36,033 nucleotides of DNA from a virus: positions 1 to 36,033 of the IMG/VR virus record IMGVR_UViG_3300018065_000038. One strand, 5' to 3'. Below the pieces are notes generated by a model. That model searched no databases and had not been told where the DNA came from. It worked only from the letters and a program-made list of their open reading frames with translations. The number at the start of each line of letters is the position of its first letter. Position 1 is the first letter of the stretch. Below are positions 9,807-35,986 of the stretch, piece after piece. A program made the position numbers and the translations under genes.

Positions 9807-11906
9807 TTAAACTACGCATGATAAACAACCCTCCGCAGTCGTATCTTTAGTCCGCGCATAGTACAACGTCTTGATCCCTTTGTGATGAGCGTACAAGTCA
9901 ATTCGGTTCAGATCGCGTGTCGTCATCGTATCCTTTAAGAACAACGTAAATGAGATGCCTTGATCGACGTGCTGCTGGATCGTCGCGATCATATCGACGA
10001 CTTTGAACATATCCATGTCGTACGCTTCCTTATAGAAGAACCAATTCTTCGCGCTAAGCCCTGGCATCGGATAATACGTCTTGGAATTTCCGTATGTCCG
10101 TTCCTCTATGCGCTCCATGATCGGCATGACTGACGCCGTAGCAGACTGAACGTACGAAATCGATCCCGTCGGTGCGATCGCTAGTCTATACGAATGATAG
10201 AGTCCGTATTTTCGTACGTTGTCCTCCAGCCGAACCCAATCGATGCGTTCCGGAATTCCAACGCCTTCAAACAGTTTCGCGACCTTCTCCGTTTTAGGAC
10301 GGAAATCTCCTGCGACGTACTTATCGAAGTAGCTGCCGTCTGCATACGTTGATCCTTCGAATCCCTCGAACGTGCTGCCGGTTTCCTTCGCAATCTCATT
10401 CGACCTAACAAGCGACCAATAATTAACGAGCGCAAAGAATACGTTAGCGAAATCACGCGCCTCTTCCGATTCATAAGCGATCCCATTCTGCGCAAGATAT
10501 CCGTGTAGATTCATCGCGCCAAGTCCGATCGAACGCATCTGACGGTTAGCCTTAGCGACTGCCGGCGCGTTCTTGATGTTCGTTGATTCCGATACGACCG
10601 TCAGCGCATCGACTGCAAGCTTAACCGTTTTCTCGATCGACTTATTCGCCATCACGTTCGCAATGTTGAGCGAGCCGAGATTGCACGAAATGTCGAGGCC
10701 GATTGCGTCCGGTTCGCCGTAGTCGGTGTATTCCGATACCTGCGACGCCTGAAGCACCTCCGAGCACAGATTCGAAAATTTAACCTTCGAAATGTGATTC
10801 AGCGCATGAGCCGCGTTTACGTTATCTTCGAACATGATGTACGGGTACCCCGATTCGGACCGCAGAATCGCAAGCTTTTCGAGCAGCTGTCGCGGGTTGA
10901 TTTTATCTTTCCGAACGTTCGGATTCTCGACGAGCTTGTCGTACATTTCTCCGATATCCATTTCGTCAAGATGCTCGCCGTATTCCTTATAGACCGTATG
11001 TGGGTAGAAAACGTATGCGTCCCGATCTTCGCGCGCCAATTCGATAAACTTATCCGGGATGACGACGCCGATCGATAACGTCTTGACCCTTACGTCTTCA
11101 TCTGCGCTGATTTTTTTGGTATCGAGGAAATCGTTAATATCAGCGTGAAAAACGTTTAGATACGCCGCGCCTGACCCCCTACGCAATCCCATCTGATCCG
11201 CATACCGGAACGCATTATCGAGCAGCTTCATGACGCCGACGACGCCCTTCGTCGAATTCTCAACGCCCTTGATCGATTCGCCTTTCGCCCTGATTTTCGA
11301 TAGCGACAACGACACGCCGCCGCCGAGTTTCGAAAGCTGCATCGCCATGTCTACCGCGCGACTGATATCGTTCAGAGAGTCGCCCACTTCGAGAAGGAAA
11401 CACGATACGAGTTCGCCGCGTCGCTTCCGCCCGGCATTCAAGAACGTCGGTGTGGCCGGTTGATATTCCTGCCGGATCATCATTTCCGCAAACTCGATCG
11501 CCTTGGCTGCGTCTCCTTTCGCGAAGAACAGCGCACAGATGGCGATGCGGTCTTCGTAGCGTTCGAGGATCTTCTTTTTATCGTTCGTCTTGAGCGCATA
11601 GTCGTTGTAAAATTTGAACGCACTCATAAACGAAGGGAAACGGAACTTTTTCGCGTAGGCCGCTTTGTAGACCGCTTTTATTTCATCGAATGTATACGGC
11701 TCGAAGACCTCGCGTTCGTAGTAGTCGTTCTCGATCAGATAGTCGAGCTTTTCGCGCAGATCGTGGAAAAATACCGTATTCTGATTCACGTAATCTATGA
11801 AATAACTGCGGACGGCTTCGGCATCCTTTTCGAATTGAAAGCCTCCGTCCTTCCGTATCATAATTTCGTTATTAAGTTCGATATACTTCGCGTGCTTATT
11901 CGTCAA
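9807..11906 (-). CDS. nrdE: Class Ib ribonucleotide reductase alpha subunit NrdE
   Basis: 699 residues, TTG start. It reduces ribonucleoside diphosphates to dNDPs in the cytoplasm. The active-site cysteines are placed as expected: ELVSCFLLEVGD, the thiyl cysteine in SNLCSEVLQ/ISCNLGSLN, and the C-terminal redox pair in EGCLSCVV, which is re-reduced by a NrdH-type glutaredoxin. RRGSGAAYLNVFHADI, NLHGYLAQNG and APTGSISYVQSATASVMP are family blocks. No nrdH is seen in the window, so the phage presumably uses the host's. The gene is continuous, with no intein or intron. It follows nrdI by six bases. Confidence 0.95.
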   Translation of the reverse strand: MTNKHAKYIELNNEIMIRKDGGFQFEKDAEAVRSYFIDYVNQNTVFFHDLREKLDYLIENDYYEREVFEPYTFDEIKAVYKAAYAKKFRFPSFMSAFKFYNDYALKTNDKKKILERYEDRIAICALFFAKGDAAKAIEFAEMMIRQEYQPATPTFLNAGRKRRGELVSCFLLEVGDSLNDISRAVDMAMQLSKLGGGVSLSLSKIRAKGESIKGVENSTKGVVGVMKLLDNAFRYADQMGLRRGSGAAYLNVFHADINDFLDTKKISADEDVRVKTLSIGVVIPDKFIELAREDRDAYVFYPHTVYKEYGEHLDEMDIGEMYDKLVENPNVRKDKINPRQLLEKLAILRSESGYPYIMFEDNVNAAHALNHISKVKFSNLCSEVLQASQVSEYTDYGEPDAIGLDISCNLGSLNIANVMANKSIEKTVKLAVDALTVVSESTNIKNAPAVAKANRQMRSIGLGAMNLHGYLAQNGIAYESEEARDFANVFFALVNYWSLVRSNEIAKETGSTFEGFEGSTYADGSYFDKYVAGDFRPKTEKVAKLFEGVGIPERIDWVRLEDNVRKYGLYHSYRLAIAPTGSISYVQSATASVMPIMERIEERTYGNSKTYYPMPGLSAKNWFFYKEAYDMDMFKVVDMIATIQQHVDQGISFTLFLKDTMTTRDLNRIDLYAHHKGIKTLYYARTKDTTAEGCLSCVV

Positions 11907-21347: not shown

Positions 21348-21483
21348 AGTACGTTCGCCTCCATATTATTTAGGTAAAACGCACTAGATCGGAAGGTGTG
21401 TTCGCATTCTGTTCGCTTGTCTTTTGACAACAGATTGTATATGATGAGGGTGTAGCGATGCCTTCCGGGCTAGTTACGTTAAG
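21348..21483 (-). promoter_or_regulatory. Non-coding leader between sigma-like gene and SSB block
   Basis: 136 bp without a gene. On the plus strand it contains TTGTC-TTTT-GACAA (a 5-bp-stem hairpin) and a direct repeat GTTCGCATTCTGTTCGC. I see no convincing sigma-A pair on the minus strand. It is the natural place for the promoter and control of the SSB-to-methyltransferase operon. Confidence 0.35.
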
Positions 21484-22098
21484 TTATTTCGCAAACAAAT
21501 AGTCTCGGTAATCACCGAACTGTTGTGTATCGAAGTAGCCTGCCAGCTTTTCGAGTTTGCGAATGACTGTCATGTGATGGACGCCTAACTTCTTACCGAT
21601 TGCCGTCGGCGTTGGGCGTTCACACGCTAGGAACGTCTCAACAATTACTTTTGTTGTTTCGTCCGATTTTTCAACCAAATTGTCGATCAGTTGCCGCTGA
21701 TCGGCTCTTTTTTTTCTGAAAAATAAATTCTCTGGTGTATCTTCTGCGACGACTCTCAGCGTTGCCGCGCCTTCATCGCCATTCGAAGATAACCCGCACT
21801 CTAACACTTCATTCTGATGCCTTTTCTTTTTATTCCTGTAAAGATTCGCTCGTTTATTTTTTAGACTGAACTTAAAATAGTTTTCGAAGTCATGTTCACC
21901 GGAATAAGAAGCAACACAATTCATAAGGACATCCTCGTATAATGCTAACACCTCCGGAACGCTAGCCCTCAACGATCGCGCCACCTCTTCAAATGTCGAT
22001 CGCATCGGAGTGATGGTTAGGTCATAAATCTCTGTGAAGGAAGTATTACTTCTTGTCTTTTGATAATTCAATACCAGGCTATTCAGTTTTTCTTTCAA
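21484..22098 (-). CDS. Sigma-70-like (ECF-like) transcription factor
   Basis: 204 residues, TTG start with GGAGGGTG upstream. The N-terminal half looks like sigma region 2 (TFEEVARSLRASVPEVLALY with the DFENYFKFSLKNKRANLYRN helix that in ECF factors precedes region 2.4). The C-terminal half has a region 4-type helix-turn-helix (RPTPTAIGKKLGVHHMTVIR) after a DLxEKSDETTKVIVETFL helix. It is the first gene downstream of aimP, separated by the aimP terminator, and is preceded by a 30-bp element that recurs at 34566. It may direct RNA polymerase to phage promoters as the next step after the arbitrium decision; that is inference. A DNA-binding activator with sigma ancestry is the alternative. Confidence 0.6.
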   Translation of the reverse strand: MKEKLNSLVLNYQKTRSNTSFTEIYDLTITPMRSTFEEVARSLRASVPEVLALYEDVLMNCVASYSGEHDFENYFKFSLKNKRANLYRNKKKRHQNEVLECGLSSNGDEGAATLRVVAEDTPENLFFRKKRADQRQLIDNLVEKSDETTKVIVETFLACERPTPTAIGKKLGVHHMTVIRKLEKLAGYFDTQQFGDYRDYLFAK

Positions 22099-22125
22099 AA
22101 ACTTTCACCCTCCTTTTTTCACTTA

Positions 22126-22155
22126 ATAATACCCGCGACATTTTAAAGCCGCACA
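22126..22155. promoter_or_regulatory. 30-bp element, copy A (leader of sigma-like gene)
   Basis: Begins ATAATACCCGCGAC and ends CCGCACA with an AT-rich middle (TTTTAAA). 28 of 30 bases match the copy at 34566-34595. On the minus strand it ends in GGGTATTAT 27 bases before the start codon, so the TATTAT could be a -10 hexamer. No good -35 is present. Confidence 0.6.
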
Positions 22156-22193
22156 TAATTTCTTAATTTTTTTCTAAGTTTTTCTTCTGTAAA

Positions 22194-22264
22194 GAAATAA
22201 TAACATGTAATTTGGATAATTCTTCTCTATCACACTATGTTTCCGAAAAATAATTTAATGTAAT
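22194..22264. repeat. AT-rich direct repeats downstream of aimP
   Basis: GAAATAATAACATGTAAT (22194-22211) and GAAAAATAATTTAATGTAAT (22245-22264) are imperfect direct repeats 51 bp apart, with the same orientation. They lie between the aimP terminator and the sigma-like gene, where AimR binds in SPbeta-group phages (upstream of aimX). No coding frame of useful length exists in this gap. Candidate AimR-binding or promoter region. Confidence 0.35.
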
Positions 22265-22278
22265 GAATATTCGCAAAT

Positions 22279-22304
22279 AAAAGAAAATCCCGTCGAATGA
22301 CGGG
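22279..22304 (-). terminator. Terminator of aimR-aimP
   Basis: On the minus strand CCCGTC, a 4-base loop and GACGGG are followed by ATTTTCTTTT, 15 bases after the aimP stop. A well-formed intrinsic terminator. It would separate aimR-aimP from the sigma-like gene unless bypassed by antitermination or a second promoter. Confidence 0.75.
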
Positions 22305-22318
22305 CTAAAAAAGAAAAA

Positions 22319-22441
22319 TCAACCACCTGGGACTGGGTCTGCTAACTGTGTTGTATTATCTTCTGTCACATTATTAATTAACGAACTTCCCGCTAGCAGA
22401 ACCACCGCTGTAAATAAAACTGCCAATAAAATCTTTTTCAA
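22319..22441 (-). CDS. aimP: Arbitrium signal peptide precursor AimP
   Basis: 40 residues from a TTG six bases after AGGGAGAGG. The N-terminus MKKILLAVLFTAVVLLAG is a textbook secretion signal (two Lys, 14 hydrophobic residues). A short polar pro-region follows, and the C-terminus is QLADPVPGG. In arbitrium systems AimP is exported and trimmed to a C-terminal peptide, usually six residues, which re-enters cells through the oligopeptide permease and binds AimR. Here the predicted peptide is DPVPGG. Known peptides mostly end RGA or RGG, so a Pro at the third-last position is unusual. The gene overlaps the 3' end of aimR by 68 nt in a different frame and is followed by an intrinsic terminator. 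Size, position and layout all fit; confidence rests on the neighbouring AimR. Confidence 0.85.
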   Translation of the reverse strand: MKKILLAVLFTAVVLLAGSSLINNVTEDNTTQLADPVPGG

Positions 22442-23552
22442 AGTATTCCTCTCCCTTGTAATTTAATTGGATGTCCTTTATAGGGGCAGCGACGAGAGGG
22501 TCTAATCCGGCATCGATCATATCACCCACAACGATGCTTGAAAACAGGAAGTTGAATTCTTGTGTGAATGTACTATACGCGCAGGCCAGATCTGATAAGG
22601 TCCCATCCTTGATCAATTGGAAGTACCGCAGAAATAGATTTTTTTCGCCTAGTATCATGTCTTTCGATGTTGGTAAATTTTGAGGAATCTCCCCTTTCTC
22701 TTTATACGAATAAAATCCCTCGACTAACTTCAATGTGTTTTTTGCTTCCGCAGCAATCCTCAAATCATTTGTCTTTTTTGCCTCATCAGCGCTCATCCTT
22801 ATATAGCGAAGACACTCTTTCTTATCTTCCTCTATAAAAGAAACACCCATGTAATAATACCCGTCAGATTTCGTTTTCGCACTTAAATTCGAAGAAAAAA
22901 GAAATTCTGCATGACGTCGCGCTTTTGAAAGATCTTTAAGATATAAATAAGCAGGCGCAAATACTTCGGAGAGTCTGATAAGATAACACTCTTTAAAAAA
23001 CGTTTTCCTTGCGTCACTTAATTCGTATATCTCTTTTTCGATATCGGAAGCTTTTTCAACGATTGTTGCATATTTATTTTCAAAATAAAGACAGTAGCAA
23101 GAAAAGATATCTTTCAAAACCTTTAATTCTTTATCCTTTCCGCATTTTAAAGTGTTCACATAATTCCTCAATTCTTGTGGTCTGAATTCCCCTAACATGT
23201 AGTTATATATTACCTGATAAAATTGTGTATAATTGATTAGGTTGGAATCCATTCTATGCGCTTTCAGCAATTTTTCTAACAAAGGAATATCACGCTTTAT
23301 TGCCGCATACTCAAAAGCATGTTTAATAGCCTCAGTTGTAGTTAGTTTCAAACACCATTCTTGCATTAATTCATGATACTTCGCTTTATAGAAAAATTGT
23401 GACAATTTTAATAATGTTCGAAATCCGATTTTCCCAGTTCTTTTGAAATTGTAAAGCTGATTCACATGAATATTTAATTTACTTGCAGCTGAATCAAAAT
23501 CCAAAAACAAATCGTCGAAACAGTTTAAAACATCTTGCTGAAGTGCGCCCAA
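22374..23552 (-). CDS. aimR: Arbitrium receptor / transcription regulator AimR
   Basis: 392 residues, TTG start eight bases after GGGGG; known AimR proteins are about 380-390. The N-terminal ~55 residues are a helix-turn-helix (FDSAASKLNIHVNQLYNFKR). Next comes the block YHELMQEWCLKLTTTEAIKH, which matches the YELMKDYCLNL...A..ALEYA segment of SPbeta/phi3T AimR. The rest is a helical TPR-like superhelix (for example KARRHAEFLFSSNLSAKTKS and GYYYMGVSFIEEDKKECLRY). AimR activates lysis-promoting transcription when peptide-free and is switched off by the AimP peptide. Its promoter faces that of an XRE regulator. The C-terminal 22 codons overlap aimP. Confidence 0.85.
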   Translation of the reverse strand: MGALQQDVLNCFDDLFLDFDSAASKLNIHVNQLYNFKRTGKIGFRTLLKLSQFFYKAKYHELMQEWCLKLTTTEAIKHAFEYAAIKRDIPLLEKLLKAHRMDSNLINYTQFYQVIYNYMLGEFRPQELRNYVNTLKCGKDKELKVLKDIFSCYCLYFENKYATIVEKASDIEKEIYELSDARKTFFKECYLIRLSEVFAPAYLYLKDLSKARRHAEFLFSSNLSAKTKSDGYYYMGVSFIEEDKKECLRYIRMSADEAKKTNDLRIAAEAKNTLKLVEGFYSYKEKGEIPQNLPTSKDMILGEKNLFLRYFQLIKDGTLSDLACAYSTFTQEFNFLFSSIVVGDMIDAGLDPLVAAPIKDIQLNYKGEEYFEKDFIGSFIYSGGSASGKFVN

Positions 23553-23604: not shown

Positions 23605-23625
23605 ACATATGTGTACTTTTGTACA
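23597..23625 (-). promoter_or_regulatory. Promoter for aimR
   Basis: On the minus strand TGTACA (23625-23620), 17-bp spacer, TATACT (23602-23597). Its -10 overlaps that of the opposing XRE promoter and its -35 lies within the palindrome, so the two promoters cannot easily fire together. Confidence 0.5.
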
Positions 23626-23628
23626 CAT
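23609..23628. promoter_or_regulatory. Perfect palindromic operator ATGTGTAC-TTTT-GTACACAT
   Basis: Eight-base arms with a four-base spacer, no mismatch. It covers about +5 to +24 of the rightward XRE transcript and the -35 of the aimR promoter. A dimeric repressor bound here would shut both promoters; the adjacent XRE proteins are the obvious candidates. Confidence 0.6.
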
Positions 23629-23660: not shown

Positions 23661-23858
23661 ATGATTGATTATTCCCCATTATTTAAATGTCTTAATGAAA
23701 AAGAAATAGCTTTGAGTCATTTCCGTGAAAAAGGACTAAATTCTAAAACGCAGGCTCGTATAAATAAGGGACAAGCTGTAAGTCTCTCGACAATTGAGTT
23801 TTTATGCAAGGAATTAGACGTTCCGATCGAATGTGTCGTTAGGATCATAAGGGACTAG
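23661..23858 (+). CDS. Small XRE-family regulator (Cro/YozG-like)
   Basis: 65 residues from the ATG at 23661, chosen over an earlier in-frame start because GGAAGG precedes it. MIDYSPLFKCLNEKEIALSH opens the helix-turn-helix, SKTQARINKGQAVSLSTIEF is the recognition-helix region, and LCKELDVPIECVVRIIRD closes it. The fold is that of minimal XRE proteins such as YozG. It is transcribed away from aimR from a promoter that contains a perfect palindrome just downstream, so it probably binds there and controls itself and aimR. It lacks a C-terminal dimerisation or peptidase domain, so it is not a CI-type SOS-cleavable repressor. Confidence 0.75.
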   Translation: MIDYSPLFKCLNEKEIALSHFREKGLNSKTQARINKGQAVSLSTIEFLCKELDVPIECVVRIIRD

Positions 23859-23885: not shown

Positions 23886-23919
23886 TGTAAAATAGTACGG
23901 ACACCTTAATGATAAGGAG

Positions 23920-24159
23920 GTGTTTGTTACGTTTAAGGTCGGCAAATGCCGGATACCTGAACTATGTTCCAACCGCGGTATTGATCAAACTCAACTCGCA
24001 GCAAAAGTCGGTTTAACAAAACAACAAATTACGGACTACGTTAGTCTTCGAAATAAACCGAGTATCGAAAGGGCCTACAACCTTGCGAAAATACTCGGAT
24101 GCTCAATCGAAGATCTTTACGAATGGACCGAGGTATCCGACACTAAAACGGAGGGTTAA
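23920..24159 (+). CDS. Small XRE-family regulator 2
   Basis: 79 residues if the GTG at 23920 is used. FKVGKCRIPELCSNRGIDQT, QLAAKVGLTKQQITDYVSLR and AYNLAKILGCSIEDLYEW form a complete XRE helix-turn-helix. The GTG overlaps the GGAGG itself, so it is a poor start; an in-frame ACG at 23929 lies eight bases after GGAGG, the normal distance. The protein begins in family-typical fashion right after that codon. It follows the first XRE gene by 61 bp, with an inverted repeat between them, and converges on the primase gene (4-bp overlap). Likely the second component of the immunity switch. Confidence 0.7.
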   Translation: MFVTFKVGKCRIPELCSNRGIDQTQLAAKVGLTKQQITDYVSLRNKPSIERAYNLAKILGCSIEDLYEWTEVSDTKTEG

Positions 24160-34813: not shown

Positions 34814-35800
34814 TTACACATCGAGCTTGTCGTTTTGACTCGCTTTATTAAACTGTTCGATTATTACATCATCTACGTAGTCAAGATACACTTGCGTCGA
34901 TTCTAAGTCGGCGTGGCCTAATATTTTTTGCAACGACCGAATATCGCCCCCGTTGCGCAGGTAATTGATTGCGAAAGTATGACGAAGACTGTGGATGCTC
35001 GCCCTACACTCGTTTTTCAAATTTGCTAACTTAGCGTATTTATCTGCCCGCTTCCTCAGATGATCCTTAGCTACTTCCTCTCCGTATTGATTAACGAAGA
35101 TTTTTCTCACGGCCCCAAAATATTCGGTTGTCTCTATGCGAAGTTGTTTTAGAAGCTCCGCAACTTTGTCCGTCATGGGCACCATTCGGTTCTTTCGGTT
35201 CTTATTAATCGCCCCAGGAAGCATGAGTACCTTATTTTCAAAGTCGATATCATCCGGATTAAGACCTTCCAGCTCATTCGAACGCAGGCCGCATTTTAAC
35301 GATACATAGAACGCTACATAATCCCGGAAACCAGCATAAGTATCCTTGTCAATTACGCCAAAGAAACGCCTTACTTGCGAATCGGTCAGGCTCTTTATTT
35401 TCGTTTGATCGACACGCAGTTTCGTAATTCTCTTTGCAGGGCTTTCGTTTATGATTTCTCGCTCCACCATTCGGCTAAATATCGACTTGATGCCGCCAAG
35501 CCTAATATTGATCGTAACTGGTGATAACTTACGTTGCTTTAGCATTATCGTGATATAACTACGAAAGTGATCTTCGCTAACAGACGTTATGGGATCCGAC
35601 ATACGAATCCCCGTTACTTCCGTAAATTCGTCGAAATATCTTCGATAGTCATTAATCGTTCGATCGCGGTAGTTCTCAGTTGTAAACACCAAAACCACCG
35701 CATCTAGAGCGTCTTTAACGGTCATATAAGACGGCCTTAGCTCCGTTTGACTTACATCGCGCCGGTACCTAACGCCTTGCTTTCGTCTAATTATCGCCAT
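34814..35800 (-). CDS. int: Tyrosine site-specific integrase
   Basis: 328 residues from the ATG at 35800 (GGGAGG seven bases upstream; a longer in-frame start has no ribosome binding site). The N-terminal SAM-like core-binding domain reads TINDYRRYFDEFTEVTGIRM and KLSPVTINIRLGGIKSIFSR. The catalytic domain shows GLRSNELEGLNPDDIDFENK (first Arg), HSLRHTFAINYLRNGG (His-x-x-Arg), LQKILGHADLESTQVY (His and the Tyr nucleophile). No arm-binding AP2 domain is evident, so it resembles XerC/D-like phage integrases. It lies beside a tRNA 3' end, the typical attachment target. The promoter has no clear sigma-A match. Confidence 0.92.
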   Translation of the reverse strand: MAIIRRKQGVRYRRDVSQTELRPSYMTVKDALDAVVLVFTTENYRDRTINDYRRYFDEFTEVTGIRMSDPITSVSEDHFRSYITIMLKQRKLSPVTINIRLGGIKSIFSRMVEREIINESPAKRITKLRVDQTKIKSLTDSQVRRFFGVIDKDTYAGFRDYVAFYVSLKCGLRSNELEGLNPDDIDFENKVLMLPGAINKNRKNRMVPMTDKVAELLKQLRIETTEYFGAVRKIFVNQYGEEVAKDHLRKRADKYAKLANLKNECRASIHSLRHTFAINYLRNGGDIRSLQKILGHADLESTQVYLDYVDDVIIEQFNKASQNDKLDV

Positions 35801-35986
35801 ACAAAAAGCCTCCCGAAATATTATTCCGCAAGGCATTCGTAGAAGACTCGAACTAGTCCGATATAGGCGACACGAAATCCGCTAAAAACGTCAATCCGTT
35901 TCTTCACAGATCGTGTCCTTCCGCTACACTTTTCGCTTTAACGGACCGTCGGAAAACGTTGATATGACGGGGCTAAAACGTGAAAA
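35801..35986. other. Integrase leader / attachment region
   Basis: ~190 bp without a gene between the integrase start and the tRNA. The plus strand contains several related short motifs: CTAAAAACGTCA (from 35882), GGAAAACGTTGA (from 35951), CTAAAACGTG (from 35973) and GAAAACGCG. Such spaced AAAACGT motifs could be integrase arm-type sites. The core of recombination is expected within or next to the tRNA 3' end. Confidence 0.4.

Follow-up and report, generated by a model that had tools for sequence, protein, structure and literature searches.

Arbitrium lets phages communicate through a small peptide and decide between lysis and lysogeny. In phage phi3T, its receptor AimR acts at the terminator that separates aimP from aimX, a gene for a small protein (PMC10769878). 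AimR tolerates operator spacers of 23–28 bp (PMC6458997). Arbitrium is also established outside the SPbeta group, where EIKPGG is the arbitrium peptide of Wbeta (PMC8878798). We analyzed a stretch of viral DNA of 36,033 nucleotides, the whole of a 36-kb virus record (hereafter the window), and found that it carries a genuine aimR-aimP pair (Table 1). The pair is a further member of the known arbitrium system, not another kind of system.

The locus shares with SPbeta and phi3T the order aimR-aimP-terminator-operator-output gene, the AimR fold, a secreted precursor that ends in a hexapeptide and a candidate long-spacer inverted-repeat operator downstream of aimP. In contrast to these phages, AimR is only about 12–18% identical in fold alignments, the predicted peptide ends in PGG instead of RGA, aimP starts inside aimR, and the output slot is filled by a sigma-like gene where theirs holds aimX/yopM. 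The operator of SPbeta and the candidate operator of the window both have two 6-bp arms, with a spacer of 25 in SPbeta and 24 here (PMC6458997). With Wbeta-type loci, which include that of SpaA1 (a BceA1-like phage), the window shares an AimR that is 34% identical over 91%, an xxxPGG peptide, an aimP that overlaps aimR, and a related dyad and –10 element; however, the next gene in Wbeta-type loci is a small ORF (phrog_20324) that is not sigma-like, and the genome backbone differs. SpaA1 itself (L009, HE614281) is labelled a 'Staphylococcus' phage, is classed as BceA1 and has a Bacillus Wbeta-type AimR/AimP; this host label may be wrong.

Table 1. Positions of the features of the arbitrium region and of the integrase gene in the window.
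Feature	Position	Strand	Remarks
Sigma-like gene of family A, putative output of arbitrium	21484..22098	-	204 aa, TTG start
Extended –10 element TGTTATTAT of downstream transcript	22197..22205	-	TGnTAnnnT conserved
Candidate AimR operator ATTACA-N24-TGTGAT	22229..22264	-	dyad centre at family-wide position
Intrinsic terminator-like stem-loop after aimP	22289..22304	-	hairpin formed on folding the region, z = –0.99
aimP, pheromone precursor MKKILLAVLFTAVVLLAGSSLINNVTEDNTTQLADPVPGG	22319..22441	-	40 aa, TTG start; hydrophobic secretion-type N-terminus (by eye)
Predicted mature hexapeptide DPVPGG	22322..22339	-	last six codons of aimP; predicted from the Wbeta peptide EIKPGG
Ribosome-binding-type sequence for aimP	22448-22455		complement of CCTCTCCC
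aimR, HTH + degenerate TPR pheromone receptor	22374..23552	-	392 aa, TTG start
Promoter-like site reading into aimR	23625-23597	-	–35-like hexamer overlapped by palindrome ATGTGTACTTTTGTACACAT
Perfect palindrome ATGTGTACTTTTGTACACAT	23609..23628	.	between aimR and divergent XRE genes; putative XRE operator
XRE_a, small XRE-type regulator	23661..23858	+	65 aa from ATG; conserved divergent to aimR
XRE_b, XRE-type regulator	23920..24159	+	HTH_3 46.9 bits; conserved
Tyrosine recombinase/integrase	34814..35836	-	phrog_1 integrase E=2.9e-47; XerC/XerD models match

An earlier note, made from the letters of this DNA, had described a 392-residue HTH and TPR-like protein of the AimR family, to be checked by profile search and by comparing a predicted structure with AimR crystal structures, and the ORF is present with AimR as its top match in both. 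The protein scores 176.5 bits against the NCBIfam equivalog NF038310 (cut-off 70) and 81.3 bits against Pfam PF22871 (cut-off 26.7), and it matches phrog_1728 (E=1.3e-71). Its AlphaFold (AF2) model has a mean pLDDT of 88.9 and a pTM of 0.88. When we searched this model against the PDB, all 15 matches with E<=0.001 were AimR, matched over the full length, with TM-scores of 0.52–0.70 against AimR chains of 335–393 residues. A PDB search with the single AimR sequence found no match; a search with a profile built from 30 relatives returned AimR chains only.

The same note had placed a 40-residue precursor right after aimR, followed by an intrinsic terminator. The precursor ORF and a terminator-like stem-loop are both there; however, aimP does not follow aimR but overlaps it, starting 68 nt inside the aimR ORF. 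A comparable overlap is seen in nearly every lineage examined, and in SPbeta aimP begins 13 nt past the end of aimR. AimR is 89–99% identical across independent contigs that carry both ORFs, and aimP is kept in 7/7 close viral contigs and in one B. stratosphericus genome contig. The position of aimP is also conserved in relatives, as is the peptide end, which reads either DPVPGG or DPIPGG, the latter paired with AimR proteins of 89–91% identity. With the two ORFs retained in separate contigs and the peptide end preserved, the pair is not a chance occurrence. On the model of the Wbeta peptide EIKPGG, AimP would be processed to DPVPGG. A literature search found no paper with DPVPGG or DPIPGG, although the main arbitrium-clade survey (Stokar-Avihail et al. 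2019) lay outside its reach. In three other loci (L037, L099 and L104), the AimP precursors apparently contain repeated segments that resemble pheromones, either EIKPGG in two copies or repeats similar to DPGGGPIGG.

On the 3' side of aimP, we found the terminator, a long-spacer inverted repeat, an extended –10 element and the sigma-like gene, in this order. The inverted repeat ATTACA-N24-TGTGAT occurs once in the window, where 0.01 occurrences are expected, and it is imperfect, with 5/6 arm positions complementary. Across the lineages that we compared, the TGnTAnnnT element keeps its position. In an open dyad scan of 2100 spacer/distance combinations in 14 sequences, the seven best combinations have one dyad centre, which precedes the extended –10 by 41 nt, counted to its TG. 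At that centre, 62.6% of arm positions pair across 13 AimR lineages, as compared to an average of 35.6% over 90 centres. The observed pairing was not reached in any of 2000 shuffles, a count that is not a strict p-value because we had already viewed the sequences when we picked the anchors and the initial range of spacers. When eight held-out loci were compared with the 41-nt geometry, four fit and four did not; two of the fits are clear (L110 and L145), and two (L127 and L131) fit only via shorter-spaced GAACAA/TTGTTC arms at approximately the same centre, as judged by eye. The operator half-sites co-vary with the HTH of AimR (Mantel p about 0.001), but they co-vary at least as strongly with the remainder of the protein, and the covariation may therefore reflect common ancestry. 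As a control, SPbeta has ATCACT-N25-AGTGAT in the same interval after aimP. The dyad is a strong signal across the family, and the inverted repeat in the window is a candidate operator, which AimR would bind. An initial candidate, TTCGGA-N25-TCCAAA, lies at a distance from the –10 that does not match the other lineages, and we rejected it. Several lineages also have a TGCGCG-like motif in the leader that separates the –10 from the sigma-like gene (window 22120-22160 and equivalents). On the other side of aimR, XRE_a had no match in Pfam, and further copies of the palindrome ATGTGTACTTTTGTACACAT, which may be an XRE operator, are no more frequent in the window than expected by chance.

The product of the downstream gene is a sigma-like protein. 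Against TIGR02937 (sigma70-ECF) the window's protein scores 24.7 bits, below the cut-off of 42.9, and 14/18 members of its family (family A) match this model, with a best E of 1.1e-9. Its predicted structure is of moderate quality (mean pLDDT 74, pTM 0.45) and gave no fold match in the PDB at E<=0.001; bacterial sigma factors account for nearly all of the top matches, with a best E of 4.6e-3 and TM-scores of about 0.3. When we searched viral contigs for family A without using AimR, we found 51 loci, 49 of which have AimR just upstream, although these overlap the AimR-found set and many are close kin, so that they do not represent 51 independent events. The distance from AimR to the family A gene in the 49 loci is 272–846 nt; of the two loci without AimR, one is cut at the contig end and the other (L095) has a primase directly upstream. 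In other relatives, the same output slot is filled by family B (phrog_24888, unknown function). A profile-profile comparison found no relationship between family A and family B, and we looked for sigma likeness in family B and did not find it. In one pair of loci, L050 (family B) and L079 (family A), AimR is 99% identical and the operator and downstream DNA are 94% identical, and the output genes differ. Many B. cereus-group (Wbeta-like) loci have a small ORF after aimP that is not sigma-like; thus, a sigma-like output is not universal.

The sigma-like gene itself varies in several loci. In L046 and L047, there is an insertion, possibly an intron, between aimP and the sigma-like gene, and the distance from aimR to the sigma-like gene is 831 and 2567 nt, respectively, as compared to the usual value of about 310. 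In L066 and L083, the gene is apparently split in two ORFs and the arbitrium loci are otherwise intact. The sigma-like protein of L080 (7040-7651) is apparently mosaic, with ends like those of the window's protein and a middle nearly identical to the L019 group, which suggests recombination. The apparent novelty of the locus looks to be this output. Our literature search found nothing on arbitrium driving a sigma factor; since the main clade survey was beyond that search, this lineage or the sigma-like gene may have been mentioned before, and priority for the sigma link is uncertain.

To see the unit as a whole, it is useful to compare the window with L070 and L020, whose nearest flanks are about 89–91% identical to it at the DNA level. 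This identity ends near 23888 or 24200 and returns at 21480, four bases past the stop codon of the sigma-like gene, and between these breakpoints AimR is only 29–38% identical. Receptor, peptide, operator and sigma-like gene are swapped as one unit between backbones that are about 90% identical over the flanks. In nine family-B loci, we found no AimR. These phages (L148, L150, L151, L153-L157 and L159) have a near-identical backbone without the XRE-xre-aimR-aimP block, and the primase of all nine is 92–97% identical to that of the window. We inspected six of the nine, and in these a divergent XRE repressor and a second gene occupy the slot; this second gene encodes an M78 (IrrE/ImmA-like) protease in 4/4 tested, and sequence or synteny shows a further three to be near-identical. 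Such modules resemble ImmR/ImmA of the ICEBs1 type and sit in the same primase-to-output slot in related phages that lack AimR, but they consist of an XRE repressor and an M78 metalloprotease, whereas arbitrium here consists of a peptide receptor and a pheromone. The arrangement points to a lytic role for the output gene, under the control of either a repressor/protease pair or AimR. Possible repressor half-sites AGCTRAATATTTAGCT are present before the family-B gene in the AimR-less phages.

The integrase, XRE regulators and anti-repressor in the window are signs of a temperate lifestyle, and they support carriage of the pair by a temperate phage or mobile element. The host is the Bacillus pumilus group. 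The closest relatives are on contigs of up to 68–72 kb, and the window is probably a phage fragment, so that absence from the window is not absence from the phage. The earlier note had suggested a new arbitrium carrier lineage; the phage is clearly not SPbeta, but arbitrium phages outside SPbeta have been described before, and GenBank contains relatives at the genus level, one of them with an annotated AimR. These database members of the lineage (phi18-2, 268TH002, 268TH007 and KLEB27-1, of which only phi18-2 has a named AimR among the GenBank records) share the backbone and the order helicase-primase-XRE-XRE-aimR-aimP-output gene with the window; however, their AimR is only about 31% identical and their peptides are different. 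A B. pumilus 15.1 phage ORF table, compared by gene list alone, has the same order and a 388-aa hypothetical protein at the position of AimR (PMC8347963). At 9807-10211 of the window, a region of the ribonucleotide reductase alpha subunit, a gene common to the SPbeta group, is about 78% identical to phi3T/SPbeta.

By analogy with phi3T, we propose that AimR activates the sigma-like lytic gene, probably directly, until DPVPGG accumulates. Early in infection, ligand-free AimR would bind the long-spacer operator and allow transcription into the sigma-like gene, either by read-through of the aimP terminator or from the extended –10 promoter, and the sigma-like product would drive the lytic programme. 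AimP would be secreted, trimmed to DPVPGG and re-imported as infections accumulate, and the peptide would remove AimR from the operator, so that in later infections the sigma-like gene would be shut down and lysogeny would follow. By the same analogy, apo-AimR would permit sigma-like expression and DPVPGG would end it, and the peptide would be expected to influence lysogeny. Overall, we think it likely that the locus is a true arbitrium module of a B. pumilus-group temperate phage in which AimR and DPVPGG switch the sigma-like gene.

Three other readings bear on different parts of this proposal. It is extremely improbable that the receptor is an RRNPP regulator of the Rap, PlcR or NprR type: all three belong with AimR to the RRNPP superfamily and are among the fold matches to the model, but as weaker matches that rank below AimR, and the NF038310 score, the AimR-only profile matches in the PDB and the 15/15 significant fold matches led us to rule out a Rap or PlcR identity. 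There is a small chance that the dyad at 41 nt is instead an operator of the phage XRE repressor, given that two XRE genes are divergent to aimR and that in ImmR/ImmA-type phages the same output gene is presumably under repressor control. However, the window and L070 have XRE_b proteins of 84% identity and yet different arms (ATTACA/TGTGAT as compared to GAACAA/TTGTTC), while their AimR proteins differ strongly (29%); the long spacer is also the known AimR signature (PMC6458997).

A somewhat greater, though still low, probability attaches to the reading that AimR controls an unseen AimX, a short RNA or peptide such as the product of a 25-aa ORF that starts near 22156, and that the sigma-like gene simply comes next among the lytic genes. 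This would agree with phi3T, in which AimR works at the aimP-aimX terminator and AimX is a small protein (PMC10769878), and the 25-aa ORF does follow the –10 in the window's own lineage, as does the TGCGCG-like leader in several lineages. The small ORF is absent from other lineages, whereas a family A or B output gene is common to them; an Rfam search of the window found no RNA family; and the sigma-like gene is swapped together with aimR-aimP. We favor, by a narrow margin, the broader view that many related Bacillus phages use arbitrium to switch a sigma-like factor directly, not via AimX. In this view, receptor, peptide, operator and sigma-like gene would make up a single exchangeable cassette for the decision, and an ImmR/ImmA-type repressor/protease module could take its place in a phage that is otherwise nearly identical.

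A conserved sigma-like gene behind a fixed operator-promoter arrangement is a concrete candidate for the output of arbitrium outside SPbeta. The natural swaps of peptide systems and repressor/protease pairs in near-identical backbones provide matched phage pairs for valuing communication, and the approximately twenty receptor-operator-peptide sets are possible orthogonal signalling parts in laboratory Bacillus.
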